NCBI GenBank assembly: GCA_001275005.1
Contig: JWZX01002816.1
Location: 1-31,604 of the forward strand
Length of the DNA stretch: 31,604 bases
From: Chrysochromulina tobinii
Taxonomy: Eukaryota; Haptophyta; Prymnesiales; Chrysochromulinaceae
Direction: 5' to 3'
Shown in pieces: positions 740 to 20,875 of this stretch (positions are counted from its first letter, which is position 1; each line of letters opens with the position of its first letter). Made by a program: the position numbers and the translations under genes. The notes beneath the pieces are model-generated. The model ran no database searches and was not told where the DNA came from. It saw only the letters and a list, made by a program, of their open reading frames with translations.

Positions 740-3700
740 TTAGTGGCCCTGCGCGACGTAGAAGCCCTCCTCCTCCTGGAGCAGCTGCACGATCGCCCCA
801 ACGGTCCTACCGGTCAGGTCGGCCTCGGCTGTGGGCGCCGCAATCTTGGCCAGCAGCAGCTTATCGAGCTCGACCCGCAGCTGACGAAACAGCACCGCCA
901 CGCGCGGCGGCGCCTCAAACTCCATCCAACCATCGATGGTGATCGTCTGCTCCGCGTGGCGCACCTGACGGGGGAGATGGTCTGGGCGCCGTCGTGAGCG
1001 CTTGCATGCGGGGACATGCGGGGCATTAGCGGCAAGGGCATTGACGAACCTTGAGCTCGCCTCCAAATAAGAGGAGCGGATAGGGCGTCACCATTGACGA
1101 ATCTCGCAGGTACACGCGCCCGGTGCGCACCTGTCCGTAGAAGCACGTGCCAAGATCAGAGGCTCATCACAGGCTCATCAGCGGGTCAGAGGCTCATCAT
1201 AGTCTCATCATAGTCTCATCAGAGGCTCATCAGAGGCTCATCATAGGGTCATCAGTGCGAGCGCACTTTCTCGTAGTACACGAGCCATCGCGATTCGAAG
1301 AGAGGTAGGCCCGAATTCACCGAGGATGGGTGGATCTCGACGGGAGCTCCGCCGTACCTGCAATCAGCCACAATCAGCCGTGATCATCCGCAATCATCCG
1401 CAATCAGCTGCAGTTCGTATCCGAGGCGGTTCGCGGACATCAGAGGCAATCAGCCGCAATCAACTGCCGTACCCTTCGAGGGAGGGGGTGCCACCCCTCC
1501 CCCCTTTGCCGCCGCCCTTGCCTCCCTTGCCTCCTTTGCCTCCCTTGCCGCCGCCCTTGCCTCCCTTGCCGCCTTTGCCGCCAATGCCACCGCCCCCCTC
1601 GGCATCCGCGAGCGTCGACGCACGCACCACGTTCGGGTACAGCCCCGCGCACAACACGGCGCGCACGCACGGTATCGAGGCGGCGTGAGCGTTGTAGTGG
1701 GCACCTCCCAACGGCCGTTGCTTCATGATCGCCTTCACACTCGCCTGAGAGGCTAACGGCTCCACCTTGGTGGACGGCTCAGCCTCCTTCCTTTTTTGGA
1801 GGCTTCCTTTTGTGGAAGACTCCTTCGCCGCCTCGACCTCGTTGACCTGATGTCGTTGACCGCGAACTTCGACCTCGTGGACCTGATGTCGGCCCGATAT
1901 TTCCTTTCTTGGATCCGCGAGGTCCCATTCTCGCGTGCTCCCGAAAAAGTCCACAAACTCGTTGCGCGTGTACGCCGCGCCGTCCGGCGCCACCCGCCGC
2001 TCGGGAATTTGAGCCGGTGCACCTTCCTGTTGGACGACGGGCATGGGCGTCGTAGTGGGCGTCGTCGTGGGCGTCGTCGTGGGCGTCGTCGTGGGCGTCG
2101 TCGTGGGCGTCGTCGTGGGCGATGATGGCGTCGTGTCGGGCGCGGGGGCACGTCGGGTGGGCGGCGGCGGCGGCAGGGCAAGCTGCGGCTGCACGAATCC
2201 GATCTCGAGGAGCATCTCGAGGAACTGTCCCATCACCTGGTCCATTTGAGTCAGAGTGTCATCAGAGACACATCAGAGTGTCATCAGAGTGTCATCAGAG
2301 TGTCATCAGAGTGTCATCAGAGTGTCATCAGAGTGTCATCAGAGGCTCATCACCTGGTCCATTTGAGTCAGAGTCTCCCAAGAAAGGAAGTTGGTGCGGC
2401 AAAGCTCGCGCGCCGCCGCCGCGCCTCGCGCCGACGCCCGACGAAACGCTTCATAAGCATGCAAGATGGCGAGGTGGTCTGAGCGGAGCACGCCCGCGAA
2501 CCTAATGAGGGAGCCAATCAGCATGCCATCAGCATGCAAGATGGCGAGGTGGTTTGAGCGGAGCACGCCCGCGAGGGAGCCAATCAGCATGCCATCAGCA
2601 TGCCAATCAGCATGCACTCAACATGCACTCCGCATGCACTCCGCATGCAATCAGCATGCACTCGGCATGCACTCAGCATGCACTCAGCATGCACTCTGCA
2701 TGCACTCTGCATGCACTCTGCATGCACTCGGCATGCACCTCTTGCGTGCGGCGCGCGCCTCGTCGCGGTGGTCAAAGGGCTCGACGAAGGGTGAGCGGAG
2801 GGAGAGGCCAGCGGCGATGATGAGGATGGGGTGCAGGCAGCCGAGCATGCTGCGGGAGAGTGAGAGGCGATTAGGAGGCGATTAAGGGCAATTAGGAGGC
2901 GATTAGGAGGCAATTAGCTTCTACAAAGATACGGGGCAGTTGGCGTCTACCACGATGATGATGGCGAGGGCCCAAAGAGGGGCCATCAGATCTCCAAAGA
3001 GGAGCATCTGAATCTGAATCTGAATCTCAATTTAAATCCTCAATCTCAATCTCAATCTCCATCTGTAACTCGGTCTCGCACCTGCCAAAGAGGAGCATCT
3101 TGCCGATGCGAACGTCTACCGGTAGCGTCGCGAGGTGGTGTCCGAGGGGCGTGAGCTCCTGCTGAGGACCCTCGAGAGCCTGATGAGGGAGGCAATCAAG
3201 GTGATGAGGGAGGCAATCAAGGTGATGAGGGAGGCAATCAGCCTGATGAGGGAGGCAATCAACTGATGAGGGAGGCAATCATAATCGCACCTGCAGTTCG
3301 GCGAGCGTCGTGATCGCCTCCCGCACCGCATGTGCGGCAGGTGGGTTGAGTGCCTTCGACAAGAAGGATTCGATCTCGCCGAGGTCGAGCAGCTTGATCT
3401 GCGGGCGGAGATCGTGCGGCGGCGCGGTCATCAACGGTGATGAAAGATCGCCAATGATCATCAGCGGTCATCAGCGGTCATCAGCGGCCATCAGCGGTCA
3501 TCACCTGCAGACAGAGCTCGCGTAACGGTCATCAGTGGTCATCAGCGGTCATCAGCGGTCATCAGCGGTCATCAGCGGTCATCAGCGGTCATCACCTGCA
3601 GGCAGAGCTCGTGTAAAGGCACGCGGAGCATCTCGGGAGGTTGGAAGGGAGCCATCCCGTCCGAACGAGCCTTCGTGTACCTGTGGGGACACGGGGCGCC

Positions 3701-6700
3701 GTGGTGAGCGCTTGCATGCATGGCAGGGAGGTTGGAAGGGAGCCATCCCGTCCGAACGAGCCTTCGTGTACCTGCCGCAAACATGCTCCATCAGAGTGGC
3801 CGTCGGACAGCATCAGGCGCAATCAGGCGCAATCAGGCGAGGGCTCTTCGCAATCAGGCTCAATCAGGCGCAATCAGACGCGGGTTCGTCGCAATCAGGC
3901 GCAATCAGGCGCAATCAGTCGAGGGCTCGTCGCAATCAGGCGCAATCGGACGCAATCAGACGAGGGCTCGTCGCAATCAGCCGTCATTACATGTAGAACG
4001 CCTCGCCCGCCTGCACACGGCCTGCACGTCCGCGCCGCTGCCGTCGGTTCGCCGTTGAGATCCAGCAGTCGATCAGCTGCGGGAGCCTGTTAAGCGCGTC
4101 GTATCGGTTCTCCTTGGCACGCCCCGAGTCGATGACGATGATGATGTCATCAATCGTGATCGAGGTCTCGGCGATGTTGGTCGCAATCACGACCTTGCGC
4201 TGGCCGTTGGGCGGCTGTTGGAAGACGGCGAGCTGCTCCGAGATCGCAATTGAAGTGGTCATCAGTGGCCATCAGTGGTCATCAGTGGTCATCAGTGGCT
4301 ATCAGTGTTCATCAGTGGTCATCAGTGGTCATCAGAGGCCATCATGACCCATCAGAGGTCATCAGTGGCCATCAGTGGCACTCCCCTGCTTGGCCGAGGC
4401 TTGCAATGAGAGAGGTCATCAGAGGCCATCAGTGGTCATCAGTAGCACTCACCTGCTCCGACTGCGCAATCATCGAATGTAGCGGGAGCGGCAGCAGCGT
4501 TCGGCTTGACGGAACACCGACGGAGAGGGCTGCATGCAACGCCATGATCTCATGGGCGCCTGGGACGATATCACGAGAGGCGATCAGAAGGCCATCAGCA
4601 GTCAGCATGCAATCCGAGGCAACTCTGAAGGCAATCACGGCAATCAGAAGGCAATCAGCATGCAAACCGAGGCAACTCTGAAGGCAAGCACGGGTCCATC
4701 AGCAGGGTCGTCACCGGGCATGAACACAAGGATCGCGCCTGGCGGTCATCAGGGCGTCATCAGGAGGTCATCAGGGCGTCATCAGTCGTCATCAGGGTCG
4801 TCACCGGGCATGAACACAAGGATCGCGCCTGGCGGTCGATGCGCATCGAGATGAAACACGAGCGCCGCAATCGCGTCAATGTTCACTCGCTCCTCGTCCA
4901 TGATCTCGAGAGACTCGTACACGTGCCCCGGGTACGTCGCCGCACCATCAGCCACAGCCGCCGCCCGCGCCGCCTCCTTGGCCACCGCCGCGCTCAGGGC
5001 GTCTCGCATGGCGCCGCGCGCCTGTGGGGAAGGGCGGGGCGCCGTGGTGAGCGCTTGCATGCTGGAGCACTCGCCGCGCTCAGGGCGTCTCGCATGGCGC
5101 CGCGTGCCTTGCCAGAGCCGTCGCCCTTGCGCAAGTTCGCATGCATCGCGACCATCTCGGAGAAGCCGAGCCCTTCCCCTCCACCGCGCTGTGTTGGGCA
5201 AGGGCATGCGAGGAGGTGAGGTGGTGTTTGGCGCTCAGAGAGGCGCCGTGTCGGGCGCTCAAAGGTGGCACGAAGATGTTGGCGCTCATCGATGGTCTCT
5301 GGTGCCAAAGGAGGTCATCAGAGGTCATCAGAGGCCATCAGTGGGTCCTCAGAGGCAATCAGCGGCGCACCTCGGCCGAGCGCTCGCGTTTCGCGTACTG
5401 CGAGCCCGGCTCGATGATGAATCCGGTCATCATGAGAATCTCCTCAAGCCAATGCTCTTCCACAGGATGGGTGAAGCCGGGGATGTGCAGCGAAGGCGCG
5501 GGGGACGTCCGGATTTGGAACGTGGGTGCAACCATAATAGGCAAGCCCACCTCGGCTTCGTCATCCTGATTCGTCAACTTCGTCACCTTCGTCTCCTCAG
5601 CTTCGTCATCGAGGATTCGAACGGCGAAGTAGTTGGAGAACATGGAGGCATTGACGGTGGCGGACATGAGGATGATGCGGATGGAGGGGCGACGGCGCAC
5701 GAGATCGCGCAGGATGATGAGCAGAAAGTCGCTCTGCAGTGAGCGCTCGTGGACCTGATGATAGAGGCAATCAGCATGCAATCAGAATGCAGTCCGCATG
5801 CACTCAGCATGCACTCAGCATGCACTCAGCATGGCACTCGGAAGAAAGCCGCTCTGCAGTGAGCGCTCGTGCGAGTACCTCGTCCACGATCTGATGATGG
5901 AGGCAATCAGCATGCAATCAGCATGCAGTGAGCGCTCGTGCGAGTACCTCGTCCACGATCTGATGATGGAGGCAATCAGTGAGCGCTCGTGGACATGATG
6001 ATGGAGGCAATCAGTGAGCGCTCGTGTGAGTACCTCGTCCACGATCACGTGCGAGATCCCGCCGAGATCGGCATCTCCGTGCAATCGACGCAGCAGCACC
6101 CCCGTCGTGCAGAAGAGGAGACGCGTGGCGGCCGAGCGCTTCGACTCGAGGCGGATTTGATAGCCCACCTGCCAAATATGGACATCATCCAGCGCAATCA
6201 GGCGCAATCAGACGCAATCAAGGGCCATCCGACGCAATCTCAGTACCGTCTGGCCGAGTGGCTCGCATCGCTCAGCGGCCACCCGAGTCGCCACACCGAT
6301 AGCACTTAAGCGACGAGGCTGGGTGCAGATGATCGAGACGGCGCCCGCACGGCCGGACTCTATGGCGTCGTCCAGGATGAATTGAGGCACCTGCCAAATT
6401 AGGGAGCGGGTTTGGGGCGATCAGAGGCACTCCGCGAGGCCAGCAGAAATGGGGGCACACCTGAGTCGTTTTCCCACAGCCTGTCTCGCCACTGACCACA
6501 AGCACGGAGTGGCCCTCGAGGGCGCTCAATACGGCGCGGCGTTTGGCGGCGGCCGGTAGCTTGTCACGCGCCGCCTGCATCTCGTTCCATTTATGGGTGC
6601 CTTGCTTCGCGCGGTGCAAGGCATGCAGCTGCTGCCCCTGCGACTGCTGAGCCGCCGTTAGAGGCGCAGGTAGCAGAGCGGCGGCAAGGTCGGAGGCCTT

Positions 6701-9700
6701 CATGGGAGGCGGCGGCGGCGGAGCGGGAGCGAGAGGAGCTTCCATATCAGGCGATGCGGGAGGGAGAGGAGCCTCAGTGGCGGTGGACGCGAGGGTAGCG
6801 GCAGTGAAGGCTCCGGCCGCATTGCATGCCGAATCGGCAACGCCATCTGACGAAACGGCACCCACTCGACCCAAATTAGGCAATACGCCATCCGACGAAA
6901 TGGTACCGCCGTCGAGCGCCCTCGTGAGCACTTCCTCGTCGTCTGTGCCCAACCTTTCCATATTGGGTACTGCGGTGGTCACCTTTTCGTGAGCACTGGC
7001 GGAGGCGGTAGAGGTCTTGCCCGCTGCCAGCACCGCCGCCGTCGCCGTCGCCGATCCGCTCCCGCCATTTTGAAGGTGCTCGGGCCATTCGCCGAGAGTT
7101 CCTCGACCCCTGCCCATATTAGGCAGGTGACTCCCGCCATTTTGAAGGTGCTCGGGCCATTCACCGAGAGTTCCTCGACCCCTGCCCATATTAGGCAGGT
7201 GACTCCCGCCATTTTGAAGGTGCTCGGGCCATTCACCGAGAGAGCCTCGACCTCTGCCCATATTAGGCAGGTGACTCCCGCCATTTTGAAGGTGCTCGGG
7301 CCATTCACCGAGAGAGCCTCGACCTCTGCCCATATTAGGAAGGTGCTCGGGCCAATCAGCGAGAGTTCCACGCCCTCGACCTCTGCCCGTATTCGACGCT
7401 AAAACCACCCCTGTCGACGCTGAAACCACCCCTGTCGACATTGCCGACGCCGCCGGTGCCGCCGGTGCCGCCGGTGCCGCCAAGAGCGCCGTACCGAGCG
7501 CCGGAGCCACCATCGCCGCCGATGCTGCCGGTGCTGGTGCTGGTGCTGCCTCGACCGCCGCTGCCGCCGGTGCTGGTGCTGCTGCCGCTTGCGCTTGCGC
7601 TTGCTGCCTGGCCGCTCGCTTCGCAGCAGCCTCAGCCTCGTCCTTTTGGATCAGCGCTTTGACCTGCAATCCAGTGCTAATCAGAGCCCAATCAGAGTCC
7701 AATCAGAGTTCAATCAGTGGCGATCCGGTTCTAATCAAAGTCCAATGAGGACCCAATCAGAGTCCAATCAATCCTCTCATCACACCTGCTCCCGACGACG
7801 CTCCCTCTCCGCCTCCATCAGTGGTCATCAGTGGCCATCAGCGATCATCGGTAGCACTCACCTGCTCCCAACGACGCTCCCGCTCCGCCTCCTCCGCCGC
7901 CTCGCGTTCCCGCCGCACCTAATTAGGGAGAGAAGTGCGCCGTGGTGAGCACATGCATGCAAGGGCGCCTCCTCCGCCGCCTCGCGTTCCCGCCGCACCT
8001 CCGACTCGAGTAACGAGCGCATCGCAAGCGAGTCACGCGCATACGCCGCCGACTCGTGTGCCGTCGTGCCCACACGCGCCGTTGTGAGCGGGCGCGCCGC
8101 CCCACCGTCGGCCGCCGCCGCCGCCGCCGCCGCCGCCTCGGCGGCGCCCGCCTCGGCCGCCGCAGCCGCGACCTCCTCGACCGTTTGCGGCGGCGGCTTG
8201 ATGCATGCTAGCCGTTGGAGCAGATGAGGCAGCTCCTGTCGAAACCAGCTGAGCAGGTCGAAGAGCACAGGCGCCGCGCCGCTGCCGGAGGCCGCATTCT
8301 CGAGATGATCAGTCATCAGTGGTAATCAGCGGTCATCAGCGGTCATCAGCGGCACTCACCTGCCGGAGTCCGCATTCTCGAGGGCGAGCTGCAACCCCCG
8401 CCGCAGAAGGACCTTTGTAAGCTCGAGCTGCGTTTGGGGCAGGAGCTGTGGACAGCACACGGCCACCAGCGGCGGCGCTCGGGGGTAGGGCCACCACGGG
8501 CGCGCGGCGCGGGAACAGACGAGCAGCTCGAGTGATTCCACAGTGCTCGACGATCTCGCCTGATGAGGAGCGCAATCAGGCCGACGCAATCAGGAAGGGC
8601 GACTCAGGCTGGGAGATTCAATCTGGGAGATTCAATCTGGGAGATGCAATCCGGGAGATGCAATCCGGGAGATGCAATCCGGGAGATGCAACCACAGGGC
8701 TTCCACAGGGCTTCCCACAGGGCTTCCACAGGGCTTCCACAGGGCTTCCACAGACGTACCTGCTCGATGACGCCTGCCATCAAGGCGCCCGTTGGGAGTC
8801 GCGTGCCATCAGGGGCGAAGCCCGAGAGACGCGCCGCAAGGTGCCTGATGAGGGGTGCCATCACGAGGTGTCATCAGAGGTCATCAGGGGCGCCGCAAGG
8901 TGCCTACCCGAGCGGCACGCACTCGGGTTCGTCAGGGGCACTCGGGTTCGTCCGGGGCACTCGGGTTCGTCATTTGCACTCGGGTTCGTCAGGGGCACTC
9001 GGGTTCGTCCGGGGCACTCGGGTTCGTCATTTGCACTCGGGTTCGTCAGGGGCACTCGGGACGCATCCGGGTTCGTCAGGCAGGCACCCGTCCAAGGCGC
9101 CCTCGGCAGCGTGGGCCTTGGAGCAGTATGCCGAGTGCACGATGCGGTTGGTAGGCAGCGCGCAGCCCGGCAGCACGCAGTTCAGACAGCGTCCAGCGGC
9201 GGGCACGGCCGACGCGCCGCCCCGAGCACCAGCGCCTTCATCATCGTCGATCAGATGCTCGGAGCTAAATGTCCACGGTGCCTCACCTGCCAAGTTAGGA
9301 ATGCGTGTGGGGGCATCCGTGGCAAAGCAGTGGCCATCAGCGGAATCAGTGCCAGTCAGACGCAATCATACGCAATCATACGCAAACATACGCAATCAGG
9401 CGCAATCAGGCGCAATCAGGCGCAATCAAAGGCTCACCGGTCGATGCGTCCCAGAGCAGAGTGAGGACGGATCCGCCCGCGGTTTGACGAAACTCGGGCC
9501 CGAGGATCGCGCCGAGGGCGGCCTCCTCCTCCGCCTGCATCTCGCGCAGCTCAGATTGCATCTCGTGCGCCTCAGATTGCATCTCGTGCGCCTCAGATTG
9601 CATCTCCGGAGCAAGCACCAATCTCCGCAGGCGCTCGAGCCCCGCCAATCGCGCGCTCGCCGCCCGCGCGGCCGCCATGCGCCCCGCCGCCGTGGCGCTC

Positions 9701-10764
9701 GTCATGGCGCTCGTCGACGCGCCGTCTTGAGCGACCGTTGGCGCGACCTGACCCGGACCGTTGGCCGCGCTCGGCATGGCGCTTGGCAAGGTCGTCGCTA
9801 GTTTCTCGAGCGTTTCGCGTAGCAACGCCGCTAAGGCGACTTCCTCACAATCGCCGCCGCCGCCGCCGCCGCCCTCGGTTGCCTCCGCTAGACGCACTAT
9901 GCAACGTGAACGTGCGAAGCCAAAGGCACAGAGCCGCTGCAGCTGCGCACGCGCCACCGCCTCGGCCGCCTCCGCCTCCTCCGCCCGCATCGCCATCTCC
10001 GCACCCGAGATCGAACCCGAGATCGCATCTCCCTCCTCAGACGCGCGCTCGGGTTTCGTCAGCGGCGGAGGCTTGGGCGAGGTGCATATCTCGCATGAGC
10101 TCGCCTCCGCGCCGTTTTCGAACGTGCACGCGGAGCACGCCCACGGGCGCGGCGGCGGGGCGGGCGCTTGTGTCAGAGCGCCGCGCGCACCCGCCACTAG
10201 ACTGATCCCACCGCCGCTGTTCCCACCTCCGCTTCCGTCCGCGCTGATGCCGTTGTTCACACCACCGCTGTTCACGCTGCTGCTCGTCGCCAGCTTGGGT
10301 GCTGACGTGCGCGCGAGGCGCAGCTTGGGCCGGAACTGGAGCGGCAGCTCACCGATCGGCACGTGCACGCACAGCCAGTCCAAGCATTCGGAGAGCAGCC
10401 CTGGGCGGGCGAGCAGGGACGTGCCGCCCTCAACGCCTTCTCCCTCGCGTGCGAGCACGATGGCGACCGCCTGCCGAGCGAAGCGCTCGACGAATTTGAG
10501 CTCGGCCAAAGCTCGTAGCAGGAGCGTCTCGGTCCCGGCGTGCACGCTCGTCGTGGACGCCAGCGCCGCCGGCTCCTCGCGCAGCTCCTCGAGCAGATCG
10601 ATCACCAGCACCTCCATCTCCGCCGACATGCCGACCGAATCGAGCTGCGCCGCGCGCTTCTTTGCCCATTTCTGCAAGCCCTCCTTTTGGTGCTCGAGGA
10701 ACCGACGGTACGCGGCCTCCGCATTCGACTGCGGCGTCGCCTTCGCGGGTCTGTCTCGGCGCAT
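740..10764 (-). CDS. DEVH-box RNA helicase, DHX29/DHX57-like, 23 exons
   Basis: This is an ATP-dependent RNA helicase of the DEAH/RHA family; relatives act in translation initiation or RNP remodelling. The spliced product is 2,124 aa. Domains in order: a CLDWLC..ELP segment near residue 150 shared with DHX29/57 relatives; a RanBP2-type zinc finger near 204-225 (W-x-C-x2-C ... C-x2-C); a UBA-like segment near 262-305; an RWD-like segment from about 415; an Arg/Gly-rich repeat; then the helicase core. Motifs seen: [10 protein letters not shown] (1109-1118), DEVH (1210-1213), SAT (1242-1244), TNIAETSIT (near 1492) and QRRGRAGR (near 1539). The core is followed by the HA2 region ([26 protein letters not shown]) and the C-terminal OB-fold (FVHPSSVN-like, [17 protein letters not shown]). 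Start is the first ATG of the exon 1 frame; stop is TAA at 742-740. Low-complexity inserts (Ala-rich, TTTP, KGG) make it longer than typical relatives. Family is certain; DHX29 versus DHX57 is not settled. Confidence 0.93.
965..1049 (-). other. Helicase intron 22 with shared acceptor module
   Basis: The 85-nt intron starts GTTCGTCAATGC, which loosely resembles the start of the next exon (GTGCGCCACGCG). It contains the acceptor module at 985-1009 (CGCTCAC branch-like core between GCATGC and GGCGCC) and ends CCCCCGTCAG. The junction gives GGELK/VRHAEQ. Confidence 0.7.
1131..1266 (-). repeat. Helicase intron 21: CTGATGAGCC-type tandem repeat
   Basis: On the transcribed strand this 136-nt intron is largely CTGATGAGCCT and TATGATGAGACTA units. 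It begins GTGCGCTCGC, close to the start of the next exon (GTGCGCACCG). Its last 25 or so bases resemble the end of the previous exon (encoding LVYYEK), so both edges look like worn copies of flanking exon sequence. Confidence 0.6.
1498..1600 (-). repeat. Gly/Lys repeat-coding stretch in helicase exon 20
   Basis: Tandem triplets and hexamers (CTTGCC/CCTCC on the plus strand) encode a KGGKGG-type run between the conserved [12 protein letters not shown] segment and the C-terminal OB-fold. It is in frame and has no stop, so it is probably translated as a flexible, basic, Gly-rich insert. Length variation between strains would be expected. Confidence 0.7.
2044..2122 (-). repeat. 12-nt minisatellite coding for TTTP repeats, helicase exon 20
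   Basis: The plus strand shows a unit GGGCGTCGTCGT repeated about six times. On the coding strand each unit encodes T-P-T-T. It lies in frame between the segment ending in [10 protein letters not shown] and the segment leading to [10 protein letters not shown], and is likely a disordered linker. Confidence 0.75.
2237..2353 (-). repeat. Helicase intron 19: TGATGACACTC repeat ending in an exon-edge copy
   Basis: The 117-nt intron consists mostly of CTGATGACACT units. Its last 21 nt match exactly the last 21 nt of the upstream exon; a perfect 27-nt direct repeat (2231-2257 and 2349-2375) spans both splice junctions. Both junctions read GACCAG/GTGATG, so donor and acceptor contexts are identical. 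Confidence 0.8.
2502..2738 (-). repeat. Helicase intron 18: GCATGC-rich repeat plus copy of the next exon start
   Basis: The 237-nt intron holds many GCATGC-containing units (2583-2735). It also holds a 44-nt segment at 2531-2574 matching 43 of 44 bases of exon sequence at 2456-2499, that is, the start of the downstream exon. The acceptor is CCCTCATTAG. Confidence 0.75.
2850..3081 (-). other. Helicase intron 17 with internal copy of exon 17 end
   Basis: The 232-nt intron contains a 16-nt perfect copy (2994-3009) of the end of exon 17 (3085-3100, encoding MLLFG). It also holds GATTGA/GATTCA repeats near 3005-3060 and TAATCGCCT repeats near 2870-2915. A short open frame follows the copy but does not match the helicase family, which continues at 2849. 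Confidence 0.65.
3180..3290 (-). repeat. Helicase intron 16: GATTGCCTCCCTCATCA tandem repeat
   Basis: The 111-nt intron is about five copies of a 17-20 nt unit combining CTCATCA and TGATTGCCTCC on the transcribed strand, ending CCCTCATCAG. The junction gives [11 protein letters not shown]. Confidence 0.7.
3399..3595 (-). repeat. Helicase intron 15: CTGATGACCG repeat with exon-end copy
   Basis: CTGATGACCG and CTGATGGCCG decamers fill most of the 197-nt intron. Near 3500-3525 a 26-nt segment matches 24 of 26 bases of the exon 15 end together with its donor (3591-3616), so the intron carries a second, decayed copy of its own 5' junction. The acceptor GCCCGCAG joins LCLQ to IKLLDLGEI, a conserved helicase-family sequence. 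Confidence 0.75.
3681..3990 (-). repeat. Helicase intron 14: CTGATTGCGC repeats, exon copy and acceptor module
   Basis: The 310-nt intron begins GTAATG, runs through CTGATTGCGC/ACGAGCCCTCG repeats (about 3800-3985) to a CAG/GTACAC site at 3772/3771, then a perfect 46-nt copy (3726-3771) of the first 46 nt of exon 15 (3635-3680), then the shared acceptor module (3695-3719) and CCCCACAG. The AG/GT at 3772/3771 is both an acceptor and a donor in sequence. The splice joins GEAFYM to [19 protein letters not shown], a conserved helicase segment. Confidence 0.8.
4233..4452 (-). repeat. Helicase intron 13: TGATGACCAC repeats
   Basis: CTGATGACCA and CTGATGGCCA decamers fill the 220-nt intron. The last 24 or so bases (TTCAATTGCGATCTCGGAGCAG) resemble the end of exon 13, which also finishes CGGAGCAG. 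The junction gives [15 protein letters not shown], matching the family pattern before the TNIAETS motif. Confidence 0.75.
4560..4804 (-). repeat. Helicase intron 12: perfect 45-nt repeat of exon end plus donor
   Basis: Positions 4703-4747 repeat 4793-4837 exactly. The repeated block covers the exon 12 end (encoding AILVFMPG) and the donor with following intron bases, so the intron contains a second identical donor 90 nt downstream of the first. CTGATGACGCC repeats fill the space between copies; GATTGCCTTC/GCATGC repeats follow. The acceptor CGTCCCAG gives [16 protein letters not shown]. Confidence 0.8.
5022..5107 (-). other. Helicase intron 11: GC-AG intron starting with a copy of the next exon
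   Basis: The 86-nt intron begins GCACGC after AAG. Its first 36 nt match 35 of 36 bases of the downstream exon start. The remainder is the shared acceptor module (5038-5062) and a pyrimidine-rich CCCTTCCCCACAG. The splice gives [17 protein letters not shown] in frame. The duplicated text encodes the same [11 protein letters not shown], and reading straight through soon loses the family frame. Confidence 0.75.
5755..6033 (-). repeat. Helicase intron 9 inside the DEVH motif, with repeated junction copies
   Basis: The 279-nt intron separates DE from VH of helicase motif II. It contains at least two further copies of the junction region (near 5859-5890 and 5927-5959), each reading ATCGTGGACGAGGTACTCGC on the transcribed strand, plus an extra copy of the VHERSL-coding start near 5978-5993. 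Between them are GATTGCCTCCATCATCA and GCATGC units. Confidence 0.8.
7064..7352 (-). repeat. 72-nt coding minisatellite in helicase exon 7
   Basis: About four near-identical 72-nt units encode a 24-residue repeat containing PNMGRGRG and [12 protein letters not shown]. The repeats are in frame, upstream of the ATP-binding motif, and give an RG-rich low-complexity domain of a kind common in RNA-binding proteins. Each unit also contains CCTAATATGGGCAG on the coding strand, which looks like this gene's real splice acceptors (CTAAY shortly before GGCAG), although the frame stays open without splicing. Confidence 0.8.
7664..7861 (-). repeat. Helicase intron 6: TGATTGGACTC repeats with exon-end copy
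   Basis: The 198-nt intron has CTGATTGGACT-type units and, at 7786-7816, a 31-nt segment matching 29 of 31 bases of the end of exon 6 (7862-7892), followed by its own GTGTGATG donor-like sequence. The splice gives [17 protein letters not shown]. Confidence 0.7.
7919..7998 (-). other. Helicase intron 5: 33-nt perfect copy of next exon plus acceptor module
   Basis: The first 33 of 80 nt are identical to the first 33 nt of exon 6. The other 47 nt are the shared module (7936-7960, with GCATGCATGTGCTCACCACG) and TCTCTCCCTAATTAG. The intron starts GTGCGG and the exon starts with the same bases, so the junctions AG/GTGCGG are alike on both sides. Confidence 0.8.
8283..8359 (-). repeat. Helicase intron 4: CTGATGACCG repeats ending in an exon-end copy
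   Basis: This short intron starts GTGAGTGCC, contains CTGATGACCG and CTGATTACCA units, and ends with a 23-nt segment matching 22 of 23 bases of the end of exon 4 (CTCGAGAATGCGG.CTCCGGCAG). The last intron base is at 8282. Splicing gives [17 protein letters not shown]. Confidence 0.7.
8561..8758 (-). repeat. Helicase intron 3: two tandem arrays
   Basis: After the GTACGT donor come five copies of GGAAGCCCTGT (about 8695-8755), then six copies of GATTGCATCTCCCG and variants (about 8605-8690), then CTGATTGCG units and a CCTCATCAG acceptor ending at 8560. No exon copy was seen. Confidence 0.65.
8845..9087 (-). repeat. Helicase intron 2: CCTGACGAACCCGAGTG tandem repeat
   Basis: About eight copies of a CTGACGAACCCGAGTG-type unit (about 8925-9080), sometimes with GG or AAAT variants, follow the GTGCCT donor. 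Further on a 16-nt perfect copy (8890-8905) of the acceptor and start of exon 3 (8831-8846) is found. The acceptor is CCCTCATCAG. Confidence 0.7.
9287..9437 (-). repeat. Helicase intron 1: CTGATTGCGC repeats
   Basis: The 151-nt intron begins GTGAGCC, runs through GATTGCGCCT and GTATGATTGC units (9358-9428), and ends CCTAACTTGGCAG. The CTAAC lies only a few bases from the acceptor. The following exon starts GTGAGGC, like the intron. Confidence 0.75.
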
Positions 10765-11006: not shown

Positions 11007-14000
11007 TTAAACGAGCATCCCCAGGGCTTTGAGCGCATACGGCTTGAAGCCGACGGCCTTGATCTCTGCGGCTGCGAAGCCTCCATCCTTGAGCTCCTTG
11101 GCCGTCAACTTGAGCGCTTCGTGAAGCTCCTTGGCGCTAAAGCCAGCCTCTCGGAACTGATCCACTGTGAACGAGCAGGAAGCCATGTCCTGGATCGTGA
11201 AGCCGGCCCCCCGCAGCTGCGTCGCCGAGAACCCCACCTCCTCGAGGTCAATGGCCTTGAAGCCGACCGTGCGGAACTCGTCGGGGGCGAAGCCGACCGG
11301 ATGCAGCTGGGCGAGCGTGTAGCCGCCCTCGTATAGCTCGGAGAGGCCACAGCCGATGGCGTGCAACTCGACCGCGCTGATGCGGCCCGCAATGCGTAGC
11401 TCTTTCGCGCTGATGCCCGCCTCGTGTAGATGCAAAGTCGTGAAGTTGGCCGACAGGAGCTGCCGTACTTTGAAGCCGCCGTCGTAGAGCTGCCTCGCGC
11501 CAATGCCGCACGCGATCAAGTCCTCGATGGGGTAACCTCCCATCCTCAAGTCGGCGACCTTGAAGCCGTTTTCTACGAGCTTCTCGATCGAGAAGCCGGC
11601 ATGGCGCAGCACTTGCACCGGAATGCCTGCGAAGACCAGGTCGGGCAGCGCATAGCCTGCCTCAGCCACCTCCTCCTTTTTGTAGCCGCCCGCGCGGAGG
11701 TCGGCGGCGGAATAGCGCGCCGCTTGCATTTCCTTGGCAGTGAAGCCAGCCTGCCATAGGAATCAGCAGTGGCGATCAGCAGTGGCGATCAGTGGCGATC
11801 AGTGGCGATCAGGGGCGATCAAAGGACGTGAGTTGGCATTCGGTGGCACTCAGTAGGCGGGCAGTTTATCAGTGGCAATCAACGACACTCACCTGCCGCA
11901 TCTCGGACACGTCAAAGCCCGCGAGCTTAATCTCGGACGTCGTGTAGCCACCCGCCTTGATCTCGGCGGCGGTAAAGCCCGCTTCTCTGAGATCGGCGCA
12001 CGAGTACAAGTGCGCGTGGAACTCCTGCGCCGTGTAGCCCCCATTCTTGAGCTGGCTAGTCGAGTAGCCCGCCTGCTTCATCTTGAGCAGCTTTGTGCCG
12101 ATCATGCGGAGCTCCGAGAGCGAATAGAATTGCGCCAAGTCCTTGATGTCAAAGTGGTCCTTGAGCTCAAGAAGCGAGATGCCGCCGGCCTTCATCTCCT
12201 TGATTGAGAAGACGGAGGCGATGCGCAGCCCGCACGCGCGGATCTCCATCATCGAGAATCCTCCATCTCGAAGGTCGAACGCACTAAAGCCTGCCTCCTC
12301 CAGCAGCTTGGCGCTCACGTTTGCTTGGCGGAGCTCATTCACACGGAACCCACTCAAACGCATCTGTTGGATGGTGCACCCGATCCGAAGCAATTCCTCA
12401 ACGCCAAACCCGACGTCTTTGAGCTCCTTGACGGTGGCGCCATTCGTCTTCAGGTCTTCGGCGCTGCACCCGCCCTCTTTCAGATCGTGCCACTTGAACC
12501 CCGCCTCGAGCAGCTCCGGGGTGCTGATCTTCGCGTGCCGCAGCGCCTTGATGGGGAAACCGCCGGCCTTGAGGTCGGGTAGCGTATACCCGAGCTCGAG
12601 CAGCGCCTTTACCTTGTAATTCTTCTCGCGCAGCTGCGCCACCGTGAAGCCCGCGGCCGTCAGGTCGGCGGCGACGAAGCCGATATTGATGAGCTCGTCC
12701 ACGGTGATGTCGGCCGTCGCAAGCACCTTTGCGGAGAAGCCAGCTTGCTTGAGTTCGTCTGGGGCGAAGCCCTTGCCCTCGGCGTACAGTTCGCGTGCCT
12801 TGAAGCCTGCAGCTATCATCTGCTTGCAGTTGAAGCCCGCATCCTTGAGCGGCACGACCGCGAACCCTGCGGCCCGCAGCTCGCTCGCACCCAAATCTGC
12901 GGCCCGGAGCTCAGGCGCCGAGAAGCCCGCGTCCTTGAGCTGCACGACGGTGAACCCGCCGGCGAGCAGGTCTTCTGCCTTCAAGGCGAGCTTCTTGAGC
13001 GTGGCGGCGTTGAAGCCACATTCGCGCAAGTCGCGGACGGAGCACCCTGCTGCGGAGAGCTCGTGAGCGCTGAAGCCGCTCACGCGGCACTCTTGAAGTG
13101 TGATGCCTGTCCCCATCAGAGTGGCCGCATCGAAGCCCACCTGCCTCAGCTCTTGCGTGGTGTACCCAGCCGCCTTGAGCTCCAGAAGCGGGTACCTGAT
13201 GCAAGGTGCACTCGGAGCTCATCAGTGACGCCATCAGGGAGGTCATCAGCAAGGCCACTATCGAACCCATCAGGGAGGTCATCAGGGAGGTCATCAGGGA
13301 GGTCATCAGGGAGGCCATCAGGGAGGCCATCAGCGAGGCCACCATCGAACCCATCAGCAAAGCCATGAGTGAGGCAATCAGCGACCATGAAGAACAATCA
13401 GCGTACCCTGCCTCCTTGAGCTCCTTGAGCGGCAGACCCTCGGCCTTTAGGCCGATGACAGAGATTCCAGCCGCCTTGAGATCCGCGACGGACGAGCCAG
13501 CCATTGCGAGGTCGTTGAGAGAGACGCCCACCTTGCGCAGCTCTTCAGCGCCGTACCCGATGGCCTGCAGCTCCTGCGTGCTGTACCCGGCGGCGCGCAG
13601 CTCGACCAAAGTGAAGCCGACGGCCTTGAGAGAAAAGGCCGAGCATTTCGCGTCGCGAAGCTCGCCCGCCTCGTAGCCCGCCGACTTCAGCACCTCAACC
13701 GACCATCCAGTGCCGATGGCCTCGACGGCGGAGTAGCCGGCGCCCTTAATCTTCTTGGCGCCAAATCCCGCGTCCCGCAACTCGGAGGCGAGGTAGCCCG
13801 CGATGCGCATCTCGGCGCCGCTGTACCCCGCTGTGCGCAGGTCGGCGATCGAGAAGAAGCCCACCTCGCGCATCTCGGAGCAATAGTAGCCCGAATTCCG
13901 CAGATCCGCCGCCGGGTAGCCTCCATTGACGAGCTCCTCGAGTGTGAAGCCGGCGTCTCGCATCTCCTTGGCGCTGAACATGGCCTTTCGCAAATCGTCG

Positions 14001-16894
14001 GGCGTGAAGAGAGGCTTGAGCGTGCGGAGGTCGAAAGTGCCCTCCTTGAGCTGCGAGGCGTCGAAGCCATTGTCCTTGAGCTCGGCGGCTGAGATGCCCG
14101 CCTCCTTGAGCAACTTGGGGCTGAACCCACCCTCGGATAGCTCGATGGGCGTGAAGCTGGCCATCCGGAGCTCCTTGGCAGAAAAGGTTCCTAATCGGAG
14201 CTCGGCCGCTGAGAAACCGGCCACCTTGAGCTCATGGGCCTTGAGGCCAGCAGCTTTGAGGCCGTCGGCGGTGAACCCGCCAACCCGCAGCTCCGCCAGG
14301 TTGAAGCCGGCGCTCAACAGCTCCGATGCCGCGAACCCCACACTCCGAAGTGTCTCTGCATTCACCAGGGTGAACAAGTGGCCGCGTCGGCACGAGCCCT
14401 CGACGATCATTGAGCACAGCTCCTTCTTCCAGGCGTCCCGTTTCAACCGGCCAGTCTTGGCGGCCACGCACATGGTGATGGTGCGATCGCGCGCAATCTC
14501 TTCGTACGCTGTGATGGGCCCGTCGACGTTCTGCCGCAGCATGTCGGCAATGAAGAAGATCTCCTCACGCCACGCCCCCCCCGGAATGAAGAACGGGGTC
14601 GCCTTCAGTGCTTCAATCGCCTCGTCGCCGCCCTTTCGCAGGCGCGCGATCGGAATGATGCAGCCGCTCACCGCCGACAGCTTCAGGTGCTTGAGGGCGC
14701 TCAGCGTCGCCTGGCTCTGGTTGAGCTGCTCGAGCAGCGGCACCCCTGTCGCCTTCGTCCCGACCCACGTCAAGCCGCTCAAGGTCAGGTCGAGGCTGAT
14801 CAGGCTCGAGTTGCGAGAGAGCGCGTCGATCAGCGGGCTGATCTCGGCCCCATCGAGGTGGTATGGGCACTTCCACTCGACGATCGTGCCCTTCTTGAGC
14901 GCGTCGAGCGGCAAGCCCGCGCCCACCTCCCAGAGCTGGAGCGCTTTGGCGCCGATCGTGAGACCCGCCGCGCGCGCGCCCGCAATCACCTCGATCCACA
15001 GCTTCAGCATCGCGATGGTCGAAATGAGGATCGAAGTGGGAAGCACCGCCGCAAACTCGAGCATGGCCAGCTCCGAATCGGACGCGGTGCCCGCCTGCGT
15101 GCGGTAGATGACGACCACGTAGATGTACGACTGGAGGATGCACTGCGGTAGCGACTCGATGACCACCTCGGCGATGATGCGCGTCGCCTTGTAGGCCGGG
15201 ATGAACTGCCGCAGCCACTCGGGAAAGGGCAAGATGGCGAGCAGCCCAAAAGGCTCAAAGAACATCAAGCAGTCGAGCGCCAAGAGGCCCCACGGGAAGC
15301 CGAAGACGAGGAAGAAGAGGTAGATCGAGCTGTTCGAGCCAAACGTACTCTGCAAGTACGGCAGCACGCGCAGCTCGACGATGAGGAACTGGAACACCAG
15401 AAGGAAGATGCCGATGCCGGACCAGGTGTAGTTGCCCGTGGTCCAGAGCAGCACCGAGACCTGCACATCCGAGACGAGGTCCGCAAAGTAGAGGCCGACG
15501 GAGAAGATTCCGTTGGCCGAGCGCATTAGAATCTGGAGCAGAGCGCTCTTCATCAGGCGCCCGACAAAGCCCGGCGAGGTCGCCGAGCTGCCGGCCTGTT
15601 TCGGCGCCTCTTTGCCCCGAGCAAGCGCGTCGCCCGAGGCTTCCGCATGCGTCGTGACTGCCTTCCGGATGCCCATCAGCCCCGACTGGAGGTTCTGGCA
15701 CCGGGTCTGTAGCCGCTTGAGCTTCTCCGAGCACTCCTTCGCTTCGGTGGTGGTAGGATTCTTGCGGTACCGCACCTTGTATTGGACGTCAAGCTCATCG
15801 GCCTGGTCTTGCGTGGCTCTCAACTCCTCCTTCAAGTCCTCTTGCGATAAGGCGGTGTCATCAGCGATGGAGGGTTTGCCGGGCACGGCCGAGGCGGCCG
15901 CCTCCGGGACTCCAGCCTCGATGTCTTCACCCCGCGCCAGAGTCTCAAGCTGCTCCTTTTGCTCCTGCTTCTGATGCTGCGCTCTGGCATGGGCTGCCTG
16001 CAATAGCCCCCAAAAATGCTTGAACTCGTCGAGCTGGAGCTCCCCGTCGCCATTCTCGTCGACTCGAGCGATAGCGCGCGTGATGTCCTCCTCCGAGACG
16101 CTCCTGTTCAGGGCATCTCGAAGCTCTTTGGCATCCACGGTGCCGCTTTTGTCCTTATCTAAGACGGCGAATGCATCGACGTAGTTCATGGACATGTGCA
16201 GCTTGGAGCGCTTTGCAAAAGTCGCCTCCGTAAAGAATCCATTCAGCATACCCGAAGCCTCTTGCTTATCGATCTCAATATAGCCATAGCGCGAGAGGCG
16301 CACGAGTTTATCCTGCAGCCGCCTAATGCCTTTCCTAATCTCCTCGAGGTAGAGGAAGAAGGCTCCTATGGCGAATACGATGCCGAAGTTGAGGGAGAGA
16401 CAGAGAACCGGGTGAGCCTCATAGTAGGTGAAGACCCGATTCATGATGGAGGCGGAGTCTACAAGATCTACGTTCAGCGACTTTTGCAAGGTGTCAAGCA
16501 TGATTCGTATGAATTCGAAGGATGCGACGAGGATCGCACACGCGATTAAGAGCTCGACAGCGCCTTGGCGATGCAGCTCCACTAAGTACTCACGTAGGTC
16601 ATCGCACATCTGCTTGGGAGATGGGCATTGGCACGACGTAGCCCTCGCTGACACTGCCTCTGAAGGTGCATCTGGAGCGGGAGCCCCTTCAATGGCACCT
16701 CGATTGCCGACGCGACTGAAGTAGACCTTCGCAGACCGGCCCACCGGCGGAGGGCAGGACATCGGGGTGGTGAGCGCTCCATCGGTGCCAGCCAATATCG
16801 GCGGCGTGCCTGTTCGATCTGTCATATCTTCCGATCTGGTGAGCGCACTTAACCTTCGCGAGGCGATTTTGGCCAGGTTGCGAACGGAAAGCAT
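11007..16894 (-). CDS. EF-hand / XK-like membrane protein with about 99 decapeptide repeats
   Basis: Three exons (16894-13407, 13195-11893, 11750-11007) give 1,844 aa. Hydrophobic segments lie near residues 113-130 and 160-180. Two canonical EF-hand loops follow: DKDKSGTVDAKE (near 240) and DENGDGELQLDE (near 280). Residues about 455-630 carry several membrane segments with LYFADLVSDVQVSVLLW and IAEVVIESLPQCILQSY, which resemble the XK-related (scramblase-type) family. A leucine-rich stretch lies near 690-740. From about 850 to the end the protein is almost only ten-residue units, roughly [AG]-G-[FY]-[ST]-x-x-[ED]-L-[KR]-x. Both introns fall inside the repeat array and splicing restores its period exactly (EAGYPLLEL, EMRQAGFTA). 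The EF-hands suggest Ca2+ control of a membrane protein; the function of the repeat is unknown to me. The XK assignment is by eye. Confidence 0.85.
11751..11892 (-). repeat. Intron 2 of the decapeptide gene: TGATCGCCAC repeats
   Basis: The 142-nt intron begins GTGAGTGTC, has CTGATCGCCA decamers (about 11765-11820), and ends CTGATTCCTATGGCAG. No exon-edge copy was seen. Splicing restores the repeat text SEMRQ/AGFTAKEM. Confidence 0.85.
13196..13406 (-). repeat. Intron 1 of the decapeptide gene: CTGATGACCTCC repeats
   Basis: The 211-nt intron begins GTACGCTGATTG and is largely CTGATGACCTCC/CTGATGGCCTCC 12-mers (about 13230-13380), ending TTGCATCAG. Both the intron and the next exon start with GTAC. 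The frame is open through much of the intron, but the translation (SLMASLMTSLMTS) breaks the ten-residue pattern, which resumes at 13195. Confidence 0.85.
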
Positions 16895-19285: not shown

Positions 19286-19966
19286 GGGGCGGGGCGGGGG
19301 GTATTGCCGACGCGCGTGTGGGGGGGCGCATGGGCGCATGGGCGTAGGGCGCTGAGTCGGGCGCATGGCACATGGCGTAGGGCGGGGCTCCCGTGGGCCG
19401 CCGCCCCGGGCGTTTGCACGTATTCAGCTCACAAGGGTACGAAGTACGCAATCGAACGTGCGAAGCCGATGGGCGTGGAGGGGTCGGCGGTGCAAGCTGC
19501 ATGATGGTGCACACGTCCGCTCCCGGGCCCACGGCCACGCAGCGCGCTACTCGTCTCTGTTCTATCTCTCGTCGCTGATTCGCTCTCGCGCGGCGCCTCG
19601 CTGCCCGGGTCGTACACGATTAGTTGTGTGTGGCAACTGGCATCACTTTCGGGGCCAAGAAATGCGACGCCATGATCCGGCATGCGCGCTACTCGTAGAT
19701 GCATCTCTCGAAACTCGAAGGCCAGCCGCCCAATGGCCACTCCGCGCGCGGCCTCAGTCCCCGAGTCTTCCTAAAGTCTCCCCCCGTTCCCTAGCCGGTA
19801 ACATATTACTCGAGTCTCCCCGCCCTCTCCCTATCATACTTGATAGGCCCTTGCGGTCGGGGTGTGTGCGAGGTCAGAACAGCGGGAGCGACGGCTCCCT
19901 AGAGCCTAATTAGGCGACTCCCACGCGCCAAGGATTCTGCTCGAGGAATGTGTGCACCGCCTCTTC
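19286..19966. other. Intergenic region between convergent genes
   Basis: This G/C-rich stretch lies between the plus-strand EF-hand gene and the minus-strand CHIP gene. Overlapping short frames on both strands carry no domain. The right end holds an extra copy of the CHIP gene's 3' end (19906-19966). Confidence 0.45.
19906..19966 (-). pseudogene. Tandem duplicate of the last codons of the CHIP gene
   Basis: About 60 bp repeat the sequence at 19967-20026 (TTAGGCGACTCCCACGC, then CCAAGGATTCTGCTCGAGG and TGTGTGCACCGCCTCTT) with a single one-base insertion in the outer copy. The copy lies beyond the stop codon at 19967-19969, so it would be untranslated 3' sequence. Confidence 0.85.
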
Positions 19967-20875
19967 CTAATTAGGCGACTCCCACGCCCAAGGATTCTGC
20001 TCGAGGAATGTGTGCACCGCCTCTTTGAGCGCCAAGTTGGGTACCAGCTGGGACGACTCGAGAGGTCGGCGCGTTACCGGATCGAACTTGCCCACCTTTT
20101 GGAGGTGCTCGAGAATCACTGCCCTCTCATACGAGATTCCGTCTGGAGTCATCACGGGCTCGAGCATCGGTTCCATGGTGATCTTGCAGCAGAGGTAGTC
20201 GGGCACTCGGCTTGGGCCGCGTTTGGCACGGAGCGCGGCCATCGCCTCACCCAGGCACGAGCCTACCAGCTGCTGCTCCAGCTGCAGGTCGTGCAGACGC
20301 GTGCTGCTGCCGCTGCCGCTGCCACTGCCGCTGCCGCTGCCGCCGCTGCCGCCGCTGCCGCCGCTGCCGCCGCTGCCGCTGGCGCTCTCGATCACTGTCT
20401 GCTCACGCTCGTAGTGGCTCCTCAGCAAGCGCTCGACGAGCGCCTCGGATATGCCCACGTGCGCGGCGGCGACCGGATGCGCGACGGCCCACTGCCGCTT
20501 GCGCGCAGAGAGCATCGCACGCTGGATGTCGTCCCTGTATGAGATGGTCTTTCCTTTGCACAGGTCGATCGCGCGCAGCAGGTGGCTCGCAGCTTGTCCG
20601 TGCTGGCCCTGGCTATCGAGCGCGATGCCCAGCAGATAGTGCGCCTTGATGGAGGCATCGTCGAGCGAGAGCGCCGAGGTGCAGTCGGCGACCACAGCGT
20701 CCCACGCTGCCTTCTTCTTGTGACACTGCGCCCGGTTCGTAAAATAGACCGCCTCTGACGGCGCAAAGCAGATCGCCTCGGAGTAGGCCTCGATGGCGGC
20801 CTCGATCTTCCCCTTGGCGAAGCACTCGTTGCCGCGCTGCTTGCAAGCCTCTGCCTGCGCGCCCATCGCGAACAT
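19967..20875 (-). CDS. STUB1: CHIP/STUB1-like TPR and U-box E3 ubiquitin ligase
   Basis: The product is a 302-aa co-chaperone E3 ligase: TPRs bind the C-termini of Hsp70/Hsp90 and the U-box recruits an E2 to ubiquitinate misfolded clients. Three TPR motifs occupy roughly residues 4-108 (ACKQRGNECFAKGKIEAAIEAYSEAI, then FTNRAQCHKKKAAW, then AHYLLGIAL). A helical middle region carries a Gly/Ser repeat of about 25 residues. The U-box is near the C-terminus (VPDYLCCKITMEPMLEPVMTPDGISYER...FDPVTRRPL...LVPNLALKEAV). Length and order match animal and plant CHIP (about 300 aa). The frame runs open to 20896 with a TTG; I take the first ATG at 20875, with a second ATG three codons later. No intron is needed. 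The 3' end is tandemly duplicated downstream. Confidence 0.93.
   Translation of the reverse strand: MFAMGAQAEACKQRGNECFAKGKIEAAIEAYSEAICFAPSEAVYFTNRAQCHKKKAAWDAVVADCTSALSLDDASIKAHYLLGIALDSQGQHGQAASHLLRAIDLCKGKTISYRDDIQRAMLSARKRQWAVAHPVAAAHVGISEALVERLLRSHYEREQTVIESASGSGGSGGSGGSGGSGSGSGSGSGSSTRLHDLQLEQQLVGSCLGEAMAALRAKRGPSRVPDYLCCKITMEPMLEPVMTPDGISYERAVILEHLQKVGKFDPVTRRPLESSQLVPNLALKEAVHTFLEQNPWAWESPN

Follow-up and report, generated by a model that had tools for sequence, protein, structure and literature searches.

Where introns come from is an old open question, because new introns are rarely caught, and a helicase gene on contig C1658 raises it in a direct form: do introns that repeat pieces of the exons beside them record how they were made? 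The window, meaning the whole stretch of DNA analyzed here, is the entire contig (31,604 bases, 63% GC), from a eukaryotic assembly of 53.15 megabases in 2253 contigs. At the level of sequence, we found many introns to be composites of a cassette that also occurs in other introns and of the target exon's own duplicated edge. The cassette carries a branch-site-like sequence and usually one splice site; its 3′ half is a 27-nucleotide (nt) core, GCATGCAAGYGCTCACCACGGCGCCCC, followed by a pyrimidine tract and CACAG and lying between the exon-edge copies, and its alternative 5′ half is GTGAGTGCYRCTGATGACC... The GT or AG of the duplicated exon edge forms the second splice site, so that the mRNA would be unchanged. 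In what we call the mirror type, the cassette brings the donor and the acceptor comes from the duplicated upstream exon end. The best reading of these data is a recent or ongoing invasion by partial-intron cassettes.

Exon-edge copies in the helicase introns

To score copies, 60 nt of each flanking exon edge were locally aligned to the adjoining intron and compared with 300 Markov (dinucleotide) shuffles per intron, for 44 tests in all with a lowest possible p of 0.003. Fourteen of the 44 tests reached this floor, where about 0.15 would be expected, and 12 of the 22 introns carry exon-edge copies scoring above all 300 shuffles of their own intron, in agreement with an earlier note on this DNA that had counted at least a dozen. 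Twelve of the 13 places listed in that note were recovered at p=0.003, while the remaining one (4233-4257) is weak, with 9 identical nt and p=0.08. In 9 of the 12, one end of a copied piece coincides with the splice site; in introns 11, 17 and 18 it lies 2–3 nt off. No convincing copy appeared in this test for the other 10 (introns 1, 3, 7, 8, 10, 13, 16, 20, 21 and 22); a 10-nt match in intron 22 at the p floor was discounted, being 42 nt away from the exon edge. The gene and the introns that carry copies or cassettes are as follows.

740..10764, minus strand: DExH-box RNA helicase gene, modeled with 23 exons and 22 introns, 2124 amino acids
8845..9087, minus strand: intron 2, with a 14-nt copy of the downstream exon start at 8890-8903
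8282..8359, minus strand: intron 4, mirror type, in which the cassette GTGAGTGCCGCTGATGACC... gives the donor
8282-8304, minus strand: copy in intron 4, 23 nt of the upstream exon end, giving the acceptor
7919..7998, minus strand: intron 5, in which a 33-nt copy of the downstream exon start (7966-7998) gives the donor
7936-7960, minus strand: cassette of intron 5, the core with changes, then the acceptor CCCTAATTAG
7664..7861, minus strand: intron 6, mirror type, with a 31-nt copy of the upstream exon end at 7786-7816, beside another CTGAT-repeat stretch
5755..6033, minus strand: intron 9, with several copies of both exon edges (best 29 and 13 nt) and CTGATTGC repeats
5022..5107, minus strand: intron 11, with a GC donor in a copy of the downstream exon start at 5072-5104 (33 nt)
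5036-5062, minus strand: core of the cassette in intron 11, with acceptor CTTCCCCACAG
4560..4804, minus strand: intron 12, with an exon-end copy across the donor, 4699-4747 repeating 4789-4837 (shuffle-test match 4715-4747, 33 nt)
3681..3990, minus strand: intron 14, a CTGAT-repeat intron (3772-3990) to which a cassette (core 3693-3719) has been added at the CAG|GT
3726-3771, minus strand: copy in intron 14, 46 nt, identical to the exon start
3399..3595, minus strand: intron 15, with a 21-nt copy of the upstream exon end (3505-3525) within CTGATGACCG repeats
2850..3081, minus strand: intron 17, with a 16-nt copy of the upstream exon end at 2994-3009
2502..2738, minus strand: intron 18, with a 48-nt copy of the downstream exon start at 2527-2574
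2237..2353, minus strand: intron 19, with a 27-nt duplication across AG|GT (21 nt of exon end plus GTGATG) around an array of the 11-mer CTGATGACACT
965..1049, minus strand: intron 22, an extended form of the cassette that brings its own donor GTTCGTCAAT (core at 983-1009); no match was accepted as an exon-edge copy

The core or a near-core is thus present in introns 5, 11, 14 and 22. Every helicase intron contains either the core or CTGAT, the three without CTGAT (5, 11 and 22) containing the core; CTGAT occurs 29.6 times per kilobase in these introns, compared with 1.1 in the exons and 2.2 for its reverse complement in the introns. We infer that the CTGAT-repeat part of intron 14 is older than its cassette. 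In intron 19 the duplication holds both splice sites (shuffle-test copy 2237-2257, 21 nt), while the copy in intron 12 has no AG at its boundary and seems only to lengthen the intron. At window position 5107, intron 11 apparently uses its GC donor as AAG|GCACGC, the exon copy reading GCGCGC. Another recurrent acceptor, CCTAATTTGGCAG or close variants, is found at 9287-9300, 6391-6404 and 6169-6182 (introns 1, 7 and 8), and related strings occur in 60-base-pair (bp) and 54-bp tandem duplications at 19905-20025 and 23740-23887 of the window; this acceptor type is a possible further cassette family.

All introns here are predicted only, by a simple codon-plus-splice-site dynamic program whose first output held 24. 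Two of these, first-model introns 7 and 8, lie in a 72-bp repeat that is open throughout and were dropped as probably false, leaving 22. The repeat (7059-7345) comprises four tandem units open in the helicase frame, typical units containing GTGAATGG...CCTAATATGGGCAG|G and resembling a 54-nt intron plus mini-exon as well, so the units may be either coding repeat or stacked introns. The observation at intron 5 is limited by the first model having taken its in-frame 33-nt copy as exon, after which the intron was re-anchored on the copy itself by moving the donor to 7998, the start of the copy. The protein has the Pfam domains DEAD, Helicase_C, HA2_N and HA2_C plus a RanBP zinc finger, and among the 120 matches listed its best identity to a named organism is with Prymnesium parvum (63% over residues 1090-1600), which makes a haptophyte host probable. 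For a second gene, no close match from a named organism was among the 120 listed, and kinship with Chrysochromulina is conjecture. The spliced protein aligns with the P. parvum helicase P0007 gap-free within 15 residues of 12 of the 22 junctions (6, 7, 8, 9, 12, 13, 14, 15, 17, 18, 21 and 22), the other ten having nearby gaps. Seven of the 12 copy-bearing introns (6, 9, 12, 14, 15, 17 and 18) fall at gap-free junctions; for introns 2, 4, 5, 11 and 19, whose junctions are not gap-free, the observation is limited accordingly. Elsewhere in the window (11869-16894) lies a large predicted protein with many ELRAAGF-type repeats, whose close homologues at 97% and 93% identity have EF-hand Pfam domains.

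A dispersed cassette and its flanking duplications

The earlier note described the copies across one gene; the cassette extends beyond it: the core occurs 1293 times in the genome at up to 3 mismatches, whereas a reversed control pattern gives 0. GCTCAC within the core resembles a branch site. In a count that involves no alignment, 498 of the 596 exact core-to-CACAG stretches genome-wide continue with GT. Another 3′ end, TGATTGCCTCCCTCATCAGGT, is found 1697 times when up to 1 mismatch is allowed.

For the flanks, 228 loci (designated by L numbers) were fetched around listed core copies, mostly the best-matching ones, a sample that favors young copies and early contig numbers; copies less than 100 nt from a locus end were dropped uncounted. 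This left 243 distinct instances; excluding the 63 that form arrays, with another core no more than 110 nt away, gave 180 single copies. A duplication was called where the upstream and downstream flanks matched with a score of at least 14 and an identity of at least 87%, placing the detection limit near 14 nt. By this measure 127 of the 180 single copies are flanked by a duplication, compared with 16 of 3566 swapped pairs, and the duplications are 14–49 nt long (median 26). Ninety-two of the 127 start within 4 nt of the acceptor boundary and lie on its right side only, so that the exon copy supplies the donor; the modeled right-side introns are 63–98 nt long (93 introns; the 110-nt flank limits the upper end). 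Of the others, 8 span the boundary, 3 lie left of it and 24 have no in-register AG|GT or AG|GC. At 72 donor-side sites tabulated from the first 137 single copies, A stands at −2 in 37 and G at −1 in 61, followed by GT in 68 and then a purine in 65. A correlation between duplication length and filler length (r=-0.46) was given no weight, as it may reflect the aligner cutting worn copies short.

Fresh and worn copies occur together, as had been claimed for the helicase gene: in this genome-wide sample 119 of the 127 duplications align ungapped, with 45 identical, 74 differing and a median identity of 0.97. These differences, the many contigs involved and the gap-free alignment with the P. parvum protein around junctions 6-9, 12-15, 17-18 and 21-22 leave an assembly artefact, or coding repeats in place of introns, hardly credible, even though the introns are predicted, one copy was read as exon by the first model, and some stretches are identical on two contigs. 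The latter are L113/L117 (338 nt) and L142/L145 (330 nt), perhaps haplotypes or redundant assembly and a possible source of empty-site alleles.

The mechanism first proposed, tandem duplication of exon pieces containing AG/GT, stands in part. Exon-edge duplication does accompany the introns, intron 19 fits the model, as do the 11 of 127 duplications that span or lie left of the boundary, and PMC3443670 documents the model. A reading in which plain tandem duplication is the whole process, with the cassette explained by later gene conversion or by convergence on branch-site sequence, is nevertheless very improbable: at many different loci the copies are separated by a 27-nt core that is nearly identical, and the 92 right-side duplications bring no acceptor of their own. 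Since one splice site in most right-side cases comes with the dispersed branch-site-like cassette, simple tandem duplication is insufficient.

Similarity among the copies is confined to the core and acceptor tract. In a profile of 137 copies, conservation drops within about 5 nt upstream of GCATGC, and the 5′ half therefore differs from locus to locus. A few longer cassette copies exist (L009, L016, L017, L056, L098 and L176). The idea that one long element is what usually moves was rejected, since its 39-nt 5′ pattern matches at only 2 places in the genome at up to 3 mismatches, although related longer versions do exist. A core copy at position 1500 of L029 is part of an open frame, so that translation would include it; some cassette insertions may become protein.

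For the mirror type, the 5′ cassette GTGAGTGCYRCTGATGACCRCTGATGACC was found in 21 places at up to 1 mismatch, which group into 16 sites, and the swapped control uses one instance per site (234 pairs). A copy of the upstream exon scoring 19–30 stands on the cassette's 3′ side at 4 of the 16 sites, compared with 0 of 234 swapped pairs (maximum 13), and a match of score at least 8 ending exactly at the donor at 8 of 16, including those four, compared with 3 of 234. An earlier control for this test was discarded for its overlapping loci and arrays (95th percentile 30). Locus L055 combines both cassettes, beginning GTGAGTGCCACTGATTACCACTGATGACC and continuing into TGCCTTGCATGCAAGTGCTCA ahead of the exon copy, which suggests that both types derive from parts of related introns.

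A nonautonomous DNA transposon, an introner whose target duplication is co-opted as a splice site, would account for the high copy number and for one splice site lying in the element and one being co-opted, as in the Symbiodinium and Chrysochromulina families of PMC9860276. We regard it as improbable here: that paper gives duplications of 3–9 bp in earlier families and 4–8 bp in its own examples, compared with the variable 14–49 nt found here, the two ends of the 137-copy profile show no complementarity by inspection, the sole means by which terminal inverted repeats were sought, and left- and right-side types have related sequence (L055).

Recurrence of captured exon pieces and a proposed route of insertion

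Several loci retain probable traces of where their inserts came from. The L106 intron repeats 39 nt of its own exon start next to the core, with 35 of the 39 identical; 18–23 nt of this copy recur next to the core in L099 and L103, accompanied there by the same unusual pyrimidine tract, and L087 has the exon piece beside the core without that tract. In a genome search at up to 3 mismatches the piece occurs in these four places only. L099 agrees with the exon, GATTGGCTC, and L103 with the altered form in the intron, GACTGGCTC, a difference that suggests an order of events. A captured exon piece likewise recurs in L138 and L159. In L053 (contig C1990) a 70-nt unit, the 3′ part of which copies the exon end of that locus, stands four times head to tail, and in L054 (contig C2146) three times; all eight of its genome matches lie within those two contigs. 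L054 is a different gene, whose exon has 8 nt (GATCCTAG) in common with the unit's end. Captured exon pieces thus turn up later, together with the cassette, in genes elsewhere.

Arrays of whole introns joined head to tail at AG|GT occur in L053 and L054 (4 and 3 units of 70 nt) and L010 (2 units) and could be spliced as a single intron or recursively; L015 and L020 have similar arrays whose inner units lack an acceptor. At position 265 of L033 a core without tail or nearby acceptor is flanked by a 17-nt duplication, and the insert ends in the 8 nt ACGGCGCC, which the target already contained.

We consider it fairly probable that such composites, joining a dispersed cassette to a duplicated exon edge, were made at the DNA level in break or fork repair. 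Synthesis would leave the target exon at a proto-splice site, copy the cassette from another intron with the aid of short homology, and return 14–49 nt back, so that this stretch would be written twice; selection would then retain those products that start with GT or finish with AG and whose length suffices for splicing. CTGAT-rich minisatellite introns may have been produced in a similar way, earlier or in parallel. Template switching or staggered-break repair is inferred, in preference to transposition with a fixed target duplication, from the variable duplication length, the absence of inverted termini by inspection and the two mirror types, together with copies without a nearby acceptor (e.g. 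L033 at 265) and the exon sequence that putative parent and target have in common in 2 of 8 pairs. These eight pairs were selected among 25 rows whose flanks are similar; of the remaining 17, 3 are sibling pairs and 14 belong to a longer-element family. The exon starts agree over 8 nt in L106/L099 and 9 nt in L134/L133; among 13,861 random pairs, 0.25% and 0.08% agree at least as far.

Mobilization through RNA remains a real rival, if an unlikely one. Intron RNA or pre-mRNA would be reverse-transcribed at nicks (target-primed) or ligated into breaks and then become DNA. Target priming gives variable-length duplications and 5′-truncated inserts, as would suit the 14–49-nt duplications, the 3′ end fixed at CACAG, and the variable 5′ end and pyrimidine tail, and ligation of RNA into breaks is proposed for stwintrons (PMC12403724). 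The mirror type, which has a fixed 5′ end, does not follow the target-primed pattern, which fits the 3′-half type only; in addition, some copies have no tail or nearby acceptor (L033 at 265, L083 and L129), and L055 ends inside the core.

A number of observations weigh against DNA-level repair of exon edges as we describe it, the first being that variable-length duplications also fit target-primed reverse transcription. No duplication reached the score threshold at 53 of the 180 single copies, and 8 of the 16 mirror sites have no copy ending at the donor. The target matches the cassette's CACAG only weakly beyond AG (C at −3 in 25 of the 72 sites, A at −4 in 10), so that homology at most junctions amounts to 2–3 nt at best, which is also explained by selection for splice sites; homology to the cassette end as a targeting rule was dropped, none being evident past AG. 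Six of the eight putative parent–daughter pairs have no long common exon prefix: L106/L103 and L138/L159 have 3 nt each (7 of 8 in the latter with one mismatch), L188/L231 2, L106/L087 and window/L124 1 each, and L171/L203 0. Finally, a cruder scan for in-register AG|GT inside any direct repeat showed no enrichment over control dinucleotides, with 8 compared with 3–12 in ten 5-kilobase contig starts and 12 compared with 3–12 in the window. It is therefore the cassette-anchored tests that carry the genome-wide support.

Going further, we tentatively raise the quite possible case of a "half-intron" replicator. Its cassette, some 45 nt long and provided with a branch site and a 3′ splice site only, would spread by DNA template switching, rebuild the 5′ half from a duplicate of the host exon at each landing, and pass captured exon scraps down intron lineages, while encoding no function for mobility. 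In this one genome, many introns that are apparently young still show target duplication and cassette, and several have a likely parent intron as well; competing repair and transposition routes of intron formation can thus be tested directly, and so can the reasons for the placement of new introns at AG|GT. An exon-edge duplication supplying the missing splice site would be a seldom-visible step of intron gain.

Comparison with known kinds of intron gain

A literature search found no description of this architecture in the openly accessible text that it covered. Introners resemble the case in several ways: as in the families of PMC9860276 and Amoebophrya (PMC7789003), a repeated sequence makes introns in many genes (1293 core copies here, the introns being predicted), one splice site is carried and one co-opted from the target duplication, and carried-donor and carried-acceptor versions both occur. 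Earlier introner families have 3–9 bp duplications co-opted for splicing (Gozashti 2022, PMC9860276), whereas those found here are variable and 14–49 nt long (the score limit of 14 would miss shorter ones). Complete-intron similarity is likewise lacking, as mostly a 27-nt core and tail are held in common and the 5′ half is remade at each site, and no terminal inverted repeats were seen by inspection.

Tandem AGGT duplication, an accepted route of intron gain (PMC3443670; also PMC4974935), similarly reuses an exon-edge copy as a splice site. Here, by contrast, a dispersed cassette lies between the copies and usually gives one splice site, and only 11 of 127 duplications span or lie left of the boundary; at intron 19 both splice sites do come from the duplicated segment. 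As the case lacks a defining feature of introners and one of tandem duplications, we place it apart from both.

Terminal exon bases repeated at the far intron end, as expected of break repair, are found at the acceptor in 92 of the 180 single copies and in helicase introns 4, 5, 11 and 19. Intron gain at staggered double-strand breaks in Daphnia (PMC4202315) is comparable in its repeated hits at one site and internal repeats, but its exon repeats are 4–12 bp, and the insert here is a high-copy branch-site cassette. Direct repeats near the splice sites of 213 introns in PMC11782384 (4–30 bp, mean 11.4, 71–100% similar) also mark intron borders and are interpreted there as insertion footprints; ours are longer, at least 87% identical by the threshold set here, and tied to a cassette. 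The stwintrons of Hypoxylaceae/Xylariaceae (PMC12403724) form families of similar introns at new positions, with break repair proposed, although the accessible part of that paper reports neither target duplication nor splice-site co-option. The case is a variant of introner or break-repair intron gain that mixes features of several known kinds.
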